Source: Hyphomonas beringensis
Lineage (GTDB): Bacteria; Pseudomonadota; Alphaproteobacteria; Caulobacterales; Hyphomonadaceae
Reading direction: 5' to 3'
Length of the DNA stretch: 64,000 bases
Assembly (NCBI RefSeq): GCF_000682755.1
Contig: NZ_AWFF01000054.1
Span: 62,001 to 126,000, forward strand
Below the pieces are notes generated by a model. The model had not been told where the DNA came from. It searched no databases and was given only the letters and a program-made list of their open reading frames with translations. Shown here one piece after another: positions 27,186 through 36,944 of this stretch (the first letter of the stretch is position 1; every line of letters starts with the position of its first letter). A program made the position numbers and the translations under genes.

Positions 27186-27215
27186 AATGTTTAAATGGTA
27201 TACCATTTAAACATT
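27186..27215. promoter_or_regulatory. GntR-type operator, site 5 (30-bp perfect palindrome)
   Basis: The best site of the family: AAATGGTATACCATTT at its centre (27193-27208), with perfect symmetry extended to 30 bp (each half AATGTTTAAATGGTA). It lies 24 bases upstream of the MFS-transporter ATG at 27240. The GTATAC core agrees with the HutC-type GntR rule. Confidence 0.85.
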
Positions 27216-33814: not shown

Positions 33815-34711
33815 ATGCTAAATTATAACCATCTGAGATACTTCTGGGTCGTTGCGCGGGAAGGGCATCTGACGCGTGCAGCCGAAATTCTTCACGTGTC
33901 GCAGTCATCTCTATCTGCACAGATCAGGAAGCTTGAGCACCAGATTGGTCATGATCTTTTCGAACGCAGAGGGCGCGGACTTGTCCTGACTGAAGCGGGA
34001 CAGATTGCACTTGATCATGCCAATGAGATTTTCTCGATAGGAGACGAGCTCCTCAGTCGACTGAGCAGAGATGCCGGAGATGTGCGACACGTATTGAGGG
34101 TAGGCGCTCTGGCGACGTTGTCGAGAAATTTCCAGATATCCTTTCTTCGACCAGTGCTTGGATCGAAAAATGTGGAAATCGTTGTGCGGTCCGGGAGTAT
34201 GGGAGAGCTGCTGGGGGCATTGGAGGCACACAGGCTCGACGTGATCCTTGTTAGCCAGGTTCCTTTAAGGGATACTGCAACAAAATGGACGGCTCACATT
34301 ATTGACCAGCAGGAAGTCAGTATCGTCGGTACAAAGGAGCGTATTGGTAGCAATCGGGATATGGTTAAGTTACTAAAGGAGCACCCGATTATTCTTCCGA
34401 CTGCGGATGTCGGCTTCAGAAATGGCTTTGATGCACTTGTGGAACGTTTGAGTATCCATCCCGAGATTATTGCGGAAGTGGACGATATGGCGATGATGCG
34501 CGTCCTGGCCCGCGAAGACATCGGTCTGGCTGTCTTGCCGCCGATTGTGGTCACCGACGAGTTGACTAACGGACGTCTTATAGAAGCCTGCAAACTGCCG
34601 AATATTCAGGAAAGCTTCGCGGCGCTCACTCTGAAGCAGAGATTTCCCAATCCTGTGCTCGGATCGCTTCTGGAAGGCCTCGGCAAGAAAAACGTTGATG
34701 AAAAGAGTTGA
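33815..34711 (+). CDS. LysR-family regulator, NhaR-like
   Basis: A 298-residue LysR regulator. The helix-turn-helix begins MLNYNHLRYFWVVAREGHL and continues LHVSQSSLSAQIRKLEHQIG and LFERRGRGLVLTEAG. The NYNHLRYFW opening is typical of NhaR, the Na+-responsive activator of nhaA, rather than CbbR. It is read away from dabBA across a 28-bp inverted repeat. It probably activates the bicarbonate transporter in response to ions, pH or inorganic carbon. A nhaA gene lies 2.2 kb to the right, so the regulator may also act there (inference). Confidence 0.83.
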   Translation: MLNYNHLRYFWVVAREGHLTRAAEILHVSQSSLSAQIRKLEHQIGHDLFERRGRGLVLTEAGQIALDHANEIFSIGDELLSRLSRDAGDVRHVLRVGALATLSRNFQISFLRPVLGSKNVEIVVRSGSMGELLGALEAHRLDVILVSQVPLRDTATKWTAHIIDQQEVSIVGTKERIGSNRDMVKLLKEHPIILPTADVGFRNGFDALVERLSIHPEIIAEVDDMAMMRVLAREDIGLAVLPPIVVTDELTNGRLIEACKLPNIQESFAALTLKQRFPNPVLGSLLEGLGKKNVDEKS

Positions 34712-35169: not shown

Positions 35170-36120
35170 TTACTTTCGCTTAGGTTTTTCCTTTCGCGGT
35201 CGATCTCCCGGTAATGGGGTCAGGAGGTCTGCAGCAACATCCCGGAATACAAGCCCTAGTTTCTGGATGTTCGCTTCAAGGGGAGACCCAGCGCGCCAGA
35301 CCAGGCTGATTTGTCTGCGGGCAAGAGGATGATTGATTGGGCGTACGACTTGGGAAGGGTCTTTCTTCGCTTCGACCAACGCGTAGAGGCTCGGCAGTAT
35401 GGCGACGCCTGCTCCCATGCCGGCCATTTGTCGAATGGCATCAAGCGAAGTGCCTTCATACTCGGTGGATATGTGCGCACCAGCAGCCTCTGCAAGTTTC
35501 TGCACGATCATGCTGAGTCTATGCCCGTATCCAAGGCTGAGGAATTCCTTGCCTTTCAGTTCTGATATTTCCACCGGACCGGTGCCATCCGATAAAGGGG
35601 CGTCTGCTGCTGCGCAAGCATACAGTTGCTCATCAAAAAGCTGCATCGTCTCAGAATGTATATGATCCTCTGCGGTGGAAATGACCATGTCCAGGCGGCC
35701 GTCATTTAGTTTCTCATCCAGATTGACCGTGCGTTCTTCCCGTACGCTCATGCGCAGATCGGGATACAATTTGTGGAGTTCACGAACGGCGCTCGGCAAC
35801 AAATAGGGGCCGATGGTAGGTAGTGTTCCCAGTCGATAACGGCCTGAAATGCCCTTTTCAGACTGACGTGCGACAGTCTTCAGGTCTTCAACCTGAGTCA
35901 GGATGATACGGGCACGGTGCACGATCTCTTTTCCAATAGGCGTGAGGACTGCACCAGTCCGGGCACGTTCAATCAGGGTGACGCCAAGCTGTGTTTCAGC
36001 ATCAGAGACCTGTTCAGATAGACTTGGCTGACTGACGCCGAGAAGTTCTGCTGCATCCCTGAACCTACCCAAGTCAGCCACAGCAACAATGTATTGGAGT
36101 TGTCTAAGTGTGGGGCGCAT
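35170..36120 (-). CDS. LysR-family regulator, OxyR-like but lacking redox cysteines
   Basis: A 316-residue LysR regulator with an OxyR-like layout (RPTLRQLQYIVAVADLGRFRDAAELLGVSQPSLSEQV). The effector domain includes GTLPTIGPYLLPSAV and LGYGHRLSMIVQKLAEAAGAH. In OxyR the equivalent of the latter carries the peroxide-sensing Cys pair (GHC...GFC); here those positions read Arg and Lys/Leu, and the domain has only one other Cys (LYACAAAD). Peroxide sensing by the OxyR disulfide is therefore unlikely. The C-terminal tail is unusually basic (RPRKEKPKRK). Its target may be the divergent small frame at 36224 or genes elsewhere. Confidence 0.85.
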   Translation of the reverse strand: MRPTLRQLQYIVAVADLGRFRDAAELLGVSQPSLSEQVSDAETQLGVTLIERARTGAVLTPIGKEIVHRARIILTQVEDLKTVARQSEKGISGRYRLGTLPTIGPYLLPSAVRELHKLYPDLRMSVREERTVNLDEKLNDGRLDMVISTAEDHIHSETMQLFDEQLYACAAADAPLSDGTGPVEISELKGKEFLSLGYGHRLSMIVQKLAEAAGAHISTEYEGTSLDAIRQMAGMGAGVAILPSLYALVEAKKDPSQVVRPINHPLARRQISLVWRAGSPLEANIQKLGLVFRDVAADLLTPLPGDRPRKEKPKRK

Positions 36121-36223: not shown

Positions 36224-36406
36224 ATGTATCGCCTGACCGACAACGTCTGGACAGGAAGCCACTCAGGCTCAATGAGGGCGGACCATAGTAGCCGGGCCGT
36301 GGAGCCCGCAGCTAATAGTATGAGCCCAGAATACCCTGCGAGATGCGCAGGAGAGACGCCCTTTCTGTATCGTCGGCGCAGGCGACAGCAGCGTCGAGCG
36401 CTTTGA
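36224..36406 (+). CDS. Possible small protein, 60 residues
   Basis: A 60-codon frame whose ATG follows an AAGGAG by nine bases, giving a better translation start than most genes here. The product starts MYRLTDNVWTGSHSGSM and ends in an Arg-rich tail (YRRRRRQQRRAL). I recognise no domain. It is divergent from the OxyR-like gene. It could be a true small protein, a leader peptide, or the remnant of a truncated gene, and the low-complexity tail makes me doubtful. Confidence 0.3.
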   Translation: MYRLTDNVWTGSHSGSMRADHSSRAVEPAANSMSPEYPARCAGETPFLYRRRRRQQRRAL

Positions 36407-36520
36407 TGGAGCCGCGCCGACAGGTCTAGTTCCGTTTGACGCTTCAGATCGTCAAACCATTTAAAATGACTTTGTTACGAGGCAGATAACTCCCAGCTTA
36501 AGTCTGACAAAGTTGTTTCT

Positions 36521-36601
36521 ATCCCGCCGGCAATAAAGCTTGCTCGATTATTATAACCTGCTCCCAGAAACGCTTCGGGTGTGCCGGATTGCCGGCGGGA
36601 T
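36521..36601 (+). promoter_or_regulatory. Structured leader of ydcH-nhaA, candidate ion riboswitch
   Basis: A perfect 14-bp inverted repeat, ATCCCGCCGGCAAT (36521-36534) and its complement (36588-36601), encloses a 53-base loop and is followed by TTTT. It lies 77 bases before the ydcH ATG. Inside the loop is a short CCC/GGG hairpin. The position is where the known nhaA-associated RNA motifs, described as lithium/sodium-type riboswitches, occur in proteobacteria. I cannot confirm the conserved core without a covariance search. Confidence 0.5.
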
Positions 36602-36677
36602 TTTCGCTCAAAAGAGTATTCGAATTCCTGGCTTGAGTGTTTCCAGCTAGAGAAATTATGCGTGTAAGGAATTTATC

Positions 36678-36944
36678 ATGTCACTTATAGAGCCCTGTAC
36701 TCCTATCTTCTTTCATCAGTCGGCACATGTTCGTGCTATCCAATCTCGTATTGACGAAATCCGCAAGGAAATCAGGAGGGAGATGAAACGTCCTGCGCCA
36801 GACGTTTTTCGTTTGTCACAGCTCAAGCGCAAGAAGCTACATCTTAAGGACAAAGTGCGCCGCCTCATCAATGCACAGATAGCGAGAGCAGGCGGCCCTA
36901 AGCGGCCTGGTTCTCGGGTTCAAAAAAATGGATTACAAAAATGA
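36678..36944 (+). CDS. YdcH-family (DUF465) protein
   Basis: An 88-residue, very basic helical protein with the DUF465/YdcH pattern: an N-terminal helix with conserved His (FHQSAHVRAIQSRIDEIRKEIRREMKRPAPDVFRLSQLKRKKLHLKDKVRRLI). Such proteins are short helical hairpins of unknown function, common in proteobacteria. TAAGGA lies nine bases before the ATG. Its stop overlaps the nhaA start by four bases (ATGA), so nhaA translation is coupled to it. It may act as a regulator or assembly factor for the antiporter, but this is inference. Confidence 0.8.
   Translation: MSLIEPCTPIFFHQSAHVRAIQSRIDEIRKEIRREMKRPAPDVFRLSQLKRKKLHLKDKVRRLINAQIARAGGPKRPGSRVQKNGLQK

Follow-up and report, generated by a model that had tools for sequence, protein, structure and literature searches.

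A two-hairpin element with terminator-like features upstream of nhaA in Hyphomonas beringensis and its relatives: a putative leader

Introduction

Among genes for Na+/H+ antiporters, nhaA is the classic example. In Hyphomonas beringensis it is preceded by ydcH and, further upstream, by a perfect, G+C-rich inverted repeat, which raises the question of whether the repeat belongs to an RNA that controls antiporter expression and, if so, of what kind. A preliminary description, made from the sequence, took the region to be a leader RNA and suggested one of the alkali-ion riboswitches associated with nhaA, or a new variant of these. The whole 64,000-nt stretch of DNA analysed here is called the window, and positions are numbered within it.

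White et al. (2022, PMC9646797) suppose that the Li+-I and Li+-II riboswitches act mostly at the ribosome binding site, and report terminator-bearing Li+-I variants from Deltaproteobacteria only. Literature searches found no paper linking Hyphomonas with nhaA, and none on attenuation or a terminator of nhaA in Alphaproteobacteria. As judged from titles or the opening lines of abstracts, none of the matches listed by a wider search dealt with the element described below, and the one match for riboswitches of Hyphomonadaceae concerns methionine.

A perfect stem and a second hairpin upstream of ydcH-nhaA

The arms of the stem (ATCCCGCCGGCAAT and ATTGCCGGCGGGAT; helix P1 in Table 1) are complementary at 14 of 14 positions, with 53 nt between them, and the last base of the 3′ arm lies 77 nt from the ATG of ydcH. 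The stem runs out in TTTT, the first T of which doubles as the last base of the 3′ arm, and the stop codon of ydcH overlaps the start codon of nhaA (ATGA). On all of these points (stem, interior, T run, distance and coupled genes) the preliminary description was correct, apart from the T shared with the arm. Within the whole window this is the single perfect inverted repeat with arms of at least 14 nt and a loop of 3–120 nt; when the window was shuffled 100 times with dinucleotides preserved, at least one such repeat arose in 4 of the sequences. The RNA fold of 36518–36606 has an energy of −37.9 kcal/mol (z −3.94), equalled by none of 200 shuffles. A second full match to a 191-base query around the stem was not found in the 3.8-Mb genome.

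The stem forms the outer helix of the second of two consecutive hairpins, A and B. Hairpin A is weak by itself in the window (z −2.10). The inner helix of hairpin B (P2) pairs 36538–36539 and 36542–36547 with 36575–36580 and 36583–36584 in the minimum free energy (MFE) fold. The small hairpin in the tail is CCGG/CCGG in the related genome G016, a single two-sided change relative to the window as judged by eye. The 8-bp inverted repeat upstream of hairpin A may be an operator.

Table 1. Features of the ydcH-nhaA upstream region (positions in the window)
Feature	Position	Strand	Basis or remark
Divergent LysR-type regulator, OxyR-like	35170–36120	−	OxyR is the best NCBIfam model, 201 bits; cut-off of 329 not reached
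ORF1, 60 aa, Arg-rich end, SD-like AGGAG	36224–36406	+	Present in the 12 of 105 genomes that carry the element
8-bp inverted repeat, GTTTGACG-N8-CGTCAAAC	36434–36457	+	7 bp kept in G016
Hairpin A (in the window, its 14-bp outer helix is A+T-rich)	36464–36518	+	MFE folds of the window and 11 relatives
Hairpin B, helix P1, 5′ arm	36521–36534	+	Inverted repeat and fold
Hairpin B, inner helix P2 and apical loop	36538–36584	+	MFE fold; inner helix in relatives too
Hairpin B, helix P1, 3′ arm	36588–36601	+	Inverted repeat and fold
Short terminator-like T run ending P1	36601–36604	+	Read from the sequence
Small tail hairpin, CTGG 36628–36631 / CCAG 36643–36646	36628–36646	+	By eye
Likely Shine-Dalgarno sequence of ydcH, AAGGA	36666–36670	+	By eye
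ydcH (DUF465), 88 aa	36678–36944	+	Pfam DUF465, 33.9 bits
nhaA, Na+/H+ antiporter, 403 aa	36941–38152	+	Na_H_antiport_1, 497.5 bits; TIGR00773, 491.4 bits

Comparison with known RNA families

When the window and 19 related loci were scanned with cmscan against 4227 Rfam families, no match reached the gathering score. Below gathering, the Rfam scans returned only eukaryotic miRNA or snoRNA families, including a mir-341 match in locus L158 (27.7 bits, cut-off 90) that falls on the element itself, on the opposite strand. One TPP riboswitch was found when 19 named NhaA loci were scanned.

The models of nhaA-I (Li+-I, RF03057; gathering score 37 bits) and nhaA-II (Li+-II, RF03038; 70.4 bits) put none of the 105 family genomes over either cut-off under stricter filters, and neither model gave a match at E ≤ 1 in the window genome or in 10 related loci. 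Among 14 control genomes, nhaA-I exceeded its cut-off in one and nhaA-II in none, which leaves the nhaA-II search without a positive control. Matches below the cut-offs occur elsewhere, in 44 of the 105 genomes for nhaA-I and 24 for nhaA-II, and none of the 88 weak matches printed lies within 80 kb of any of the 40 places in the family where an NhaA gene was located. The suggestion of a known nhaA-associated ion riboswitch is not borne out by these searches, whereas 'leader RNA' is still a fair reading, since a structured element before nhaA or ydcH-nhaA is kept by 11 relatives. The element resembles the nhaA-I and nhaA-II motifs in its place before nhaA, but gives no match over the cut-off of either. 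A likeness can also be drawn to the Na+-I riboswitch (DUF1646 motif; PMC9337991), which controls sodium-related genes, but the element matched no family among the 4227 of the all-Rfam scans.

Distribution among relatives

NhaA was detected at E ≤ 1e-60 in 34 of the 105 Hyphomonadaceae genomes (40 places), and the upstream DNA was compared at 25 NhaA loci (L111–L135) and in the window. Twelve of the 105 genomes carry the element, in each case before nhaA and behind ORF1. These are the genome of the window and 11 further genomes of its genus, all with the two-hairpin layout before nhaA. One of them, G016, has an NhaA 95% identical to that of the window and the same order of ORF1, leader, ydcH and nhaA. 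The other ten species (G006, G004, G007, G027, G031, G032, G041, G035, G036 and G018; NhaA 86–89%) show the order ORF1, ORF2, leader and nhaA, with no ydcH, and with no detected ORF2 in G004. ORF2 (69 aa, MSxLKDLI..FLEEMADFAEPR...) lies between ORF1 and the leader in L112 and L114–L121, about 200–430 nt before nhaA, and was not found in the window, G016 or G004. The element is therefore kept where ORF2 was not found (these three) and also where ydcH precedes nhaA (the window and G016). The sequence pattern of the stem itself occurs in 2 of the 105 genomes, those of the window and G016. The family is identified as Hyphomonadaceae because the leader of Hyphomonadaceae bacterium BRH_c29 (L020) is identical, letter for letter, to that of the same-genus genome G031.

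A covariance model (R1) was built from the ten species, leaving out the window and G016 (effective sequence number 1.64). Its best match in the 64-kb window, at 36464–36619 (+), was full length (20.2 bits, E 0.011), and the second, on the minus strand, fell on this very region (14.1 bits), so that the score partly reflects a palindrome. Across 16 loci the G016 element scored best (21.7 bits, E 0.0054). In whole-genome mode R1 matched 10 of the 105 family genomes, namely the seeds, with one match each, and missed the elements of the window and G016 under the stricter filters of that mode. A search of 398 genomes of the order returned the same ten and two weak matches in other families (E 0.04–0.06). 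Among 80 named NhaA loci, R1 found L020, together with L048 (Defluviimonas; 19.3 bits, E 0.12) and L033 (15.6 bits, E 0.7). The L048 match lies 358 nt before nhaA and may be background or a relative of the element; given its score, 20 bits in R1 is not far above background.

Judged by these searches, the element appears to be restricted to one genus of Hyphomonadaceae, with two weak matches in other genera. Genome G028 (L122) retains ydcH and a relative of ORF2, yet R1 found no element there. In G019, a member of the same genus, nhaA is preceded by a different small ORF and R1 gave no match. Weak BLAST matches near the start of ydcH in G071 and G025 proved on inspection to be other genes; the same search gave additional weak matches in G034 and G002.

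Conservation of structure and covariation

When folded one by one, all 12 leaders gave two consecutive hairpins in their MFE structures: hairpin A of about 44–57 nt, and hairpin B of about 80–93 nt with an outer helix P1 and an inner helix P2. The z values of hairpin B range from −1.80 to −7.03 across the 12, the weakest being G031 (−1.80) and the identical pair G041/G035 (−2.39). Taken alone, hairpin A had z values of −1.57 to −3.95 in 8 of the 12 leaders, and was weak in G016 (−1.57) and G006 (−1.60) as in the window. In the window and G016 it is rich in A+T, whereas the hairpin at this place in the ten more distant relatives is rich in G+C; almost all of its letters differ between the window and the ten, showing that its shape is kept while its sequence is not.

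Between the window and G016, 13 of the 14 P1 pairs are kept; one C-G pair is replaced by U-G and one G-C pair by G-U, and the pair at the end no longer forms. The two G-U changes would not pair on the other strand. In alignment A8 (12 rows), which is fitted to the model and leans towards the structure for that reason, 92.9% of the cells of 34 pairs are paired, against at most 53.7% in slid versions; 14 pairs show two-sided changes compared with 6.1 in shuffles, and the score is 0.275 compared with 0.178, each reached by 0 of 500 shuffles. An unfitted MAFFT alignment of 10 rows (A7) has 91.2% of cells paired (1/500 shuffles), 16 two-sided cells against 6.9 in shuffles (0/500) and a score reached by 1 of 500, and the remaining two of the five measures, pairs with a two-sided change (43/500) and further pair types (144/500), fall within the shuffles. 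A slide of −3 gives A7 seven double-change pairs, against six in the true register. MAFFT misplaces the P1 gap in G006 and G004 and the P1 end in the rows with an extra G, making the A7 counts for P1 unreliable in those rows. Cells with G-U outnumber those with A-C by 27 to 12 in A7 and by 35 to 12 in A8; subject to the caution on fitting given above, this speaks for a + strand RNA rather than a DNA palindrome. Conservation of the predicted structure is well supported by these comparisons and covariation moderately so; the compensatory changes for which the preliminary description had looked to relatives are present in the 12 rows of the fitted A8 and, to a moderate degree, in the 10 rows of A7.

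Terminator features and the tail of the leader

Hairpins were taken as terminator candidates if at least 5 T occurred in the 8 nt following, and were compared with the best of 10 shuffles of their own region. By this rule hairpin B is the best candidate in 10 of the 12 leaders and beats the best of its shuffles, narrowly so in G035. The T run of the window is short (TTTTCGCT) and satisfies the rule, that of G016 (TTTTCCCC) fails it, and the leading candidate in G004 is an overlapping hairpin with its closing pair beyond P1. In the 11 leaders with a candidate, 50–77 nt separate the beginning of the T run from the start codon that follows. A terminator scan restricted to loops of 3–8 nt did not report hairpin B. 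Like intrinsic terminators and attenuators, the element has a G+C-rich stem, with a T run immediately after it in most of the leaders, and it separates an ORF from the gene downstream. It differs from them in its long stem, its inner helix and an interior of 53 nt instead of a short loop, in keeping a second hairpin just upstream and, in the window, in having a run of only four T.

The tails of 60–84 nt between the element and the next gene were searched for sigma-70-like promoters. The best sites matched 4–8 of 12 letters, and in each of the 12 tails the best site was equalled or bettered by between 57 and 188 of the 200 dinucleotide shuffles, although alphaproteobacterial promoters may escape the sigma-70 consensus. 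Against plain shuffles, 4 of the 12 tails exceeded the mean of the shuffles by a little, that of the window by 0.7. The best sigma-70-like match in the tail of the window overlaps the start of ydcH. MFE folds of the 12 leaders, stopped before the 3′ arm, showed no common alternative partner for the 5′ arm and hence no visible antiterminator, as judged by eye, a method that a pseudoknot or a protein would escape. Hairpin A persists in 11 of these 12 shortened folds and is rearranged in G027.

Five of six loci of genus g3 of the same family (L130–L134), which has another upstream gene, carry a terminator-like hairpin, GCGAGAC...GTCTCGC, with a T run starting 20–23 nt before nhaA, a distance that leaves no room for a promoter between the two. 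None of these g3 hairpins scores above the best of 10 shuffles, so that they are a lead only to the idea that terminator-type leaders of nhaA may be more widespread. No shared terminator-like candidate was found before nhaA in genus g4.

Interpretation of the element

The stem, the conserved structure, the fixed place between ORF1 and nhaA and the T run of most relatives are features of the DNA as it stands. From them we infer that transcription arrives from upstream and is terminated at the element, and that this termination is regulated. The reading that we put forward, giving it about an even chance, is that of a genus-specific, two-hairpin leader of nhaA acting as a terminator-type attenuator. 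The transcript would run from ORF1, and through ORF2 where present, into nhaA or ydcH-nhaA. Hairpin B, with its inner helix and T run, would serve as an attenuator of the intrinsic-terminator type, at which part of the RNA polymerases would stop while the rest would continue into ydcH-nhaA, and the output of antiporter would thereby be lowered or regulated relative to the small genes upstream. In this putative role the hairpin probably helps to set the amount of Na+ pump made. A terminator-type leader, if this is true, would be a concrete regulatory element of nhaA and a testable alternative to Li+ riboswitches, which matters in a family whose 105 searched genomes hold no Li+ riboswitch over the cut-off.

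A serious rival, possible but less probable than the attenuator, is that hairpin B is the ordinary intrinsic terminator of the ORF1 or ORF1-ORF2 transcript and that nhaA or ydcH-nhaA is transcribed from a promoter of its own in the 50–77 nt that follow, which would make this an ordinary finding. It accords with the anatomy of stem and T run in most of the 12 leaders, with the position behind ORF1 or ORF2 in all 12, with a tail long enough for a promoter and with the lack of a visible antiterminator alternative. Because ORF1 is never found apart from the element, nor the element apart from ORF1, distribution does not distinguish a terminator of ORF1 from a leader of nhaA. However, the sigma-70-like sites of the tails do not exceed chance, and conservation extends to hairpin A and the inner helix, which goes beyond what a terminator needs. 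The T runs of g3 are too close to nhaA for a promoter (5 of 6 loci, with shuffles not beaten). We therefore favour an attenuator within an ORF1-ORF2-nhaA transcript over a plain terminator followed by an nhaA promoter.

A conserved two-domain RNA before a Na+/H+ antiporter gene also recalls a riboswitch, and Li+/Na+ riboswitches with terminators are known (PMC9646797). A new, genus-restricted class responsive to ions or pH and unrelated to nhaA-I and nhaA-II, in which hairpin A and/or P2 would sense the ligand and hairpin B would be the termination switch, is nevertheless unlikely: no strongly conserved unpaired core is evident, the letters of hairpin A diverge, no mutually exclusive pairing is shared, Rfam gave no match and the element occurs in one genus, apart from the two weak matches. 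More doubtful still is a regulatory small RNA derived from the 3′ end of a terminated upstream transcript, the C-rich loop of which (for example CUCUCCGACCCC in relatives) would pair with other messages; the apical loop is C-rich and G-poor in the ten species and the end is terminator-like, but the window does not share this loop, and both target and transcript would be conjectural. Membership of nhaA-I or nhaA-II has the place before nhaA in its favour and is scarcely credible in view of the searches of the 105 genomes, the window genome and the 19 loci. We give equally little weight to a chance or mobile repeat; stems as long did appear in 4 of the 100 shuffled windows, but the element is single in its genome and recurs with this layout and position in 11 others. 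A repeat element was rejected for lack of a second genomic copy, R1 having given one match per seed genome.

Neighbouring genes and other features

The product of ORF1 (MYRLTD..WTG..., with an Arg-rich end) is 60 codons long in all 12 genomes (the window and L142–L152), and gave no NCBIfam match for the copy of the window and no Pfam match for that of one relative. Differences among the 12 copies are about 1.8 times as frequent at third as at first or second codon positions, and changed codons comprise 1170 non-synonymous and 654 synonymous cases. ORF1 is probably a gene under mild constraint, as the excess of third-position differences suggests, even though non-synonymous changes outnumber synonymous ones.

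In 24 of the 26 loci examined, a relative of the divergent LysR-type regulator of Table 1 is encoded no more than 1.5 kb from nhaA. Such relatives are found near nhaA in other genera too, and in genus g4 they are on the same strand as nhaA. A second LysR-type regulator near nhaA (33815–34711) has NhaR as its best NCBIfam model, with 117 bits, under the cut-off of 219. In g4 another small protein (MNWLMEMFSEFSDKVMGE...) is encoded directly before nhaA in L124, L125, L127 and L128, and similar starts are seen in L126 and L129.

A minus-strand promoter-like site at 36655–36684 (GTGACA-18-CATAAT, 10 of 12 letters) faces into the leader; the chance expectation is 0.6 per region. Elsewhere in the window, at 27186–27215, there is a perfect 13-bp inverted repeat with a 4-nt loop (AATGTTTAAATGG).
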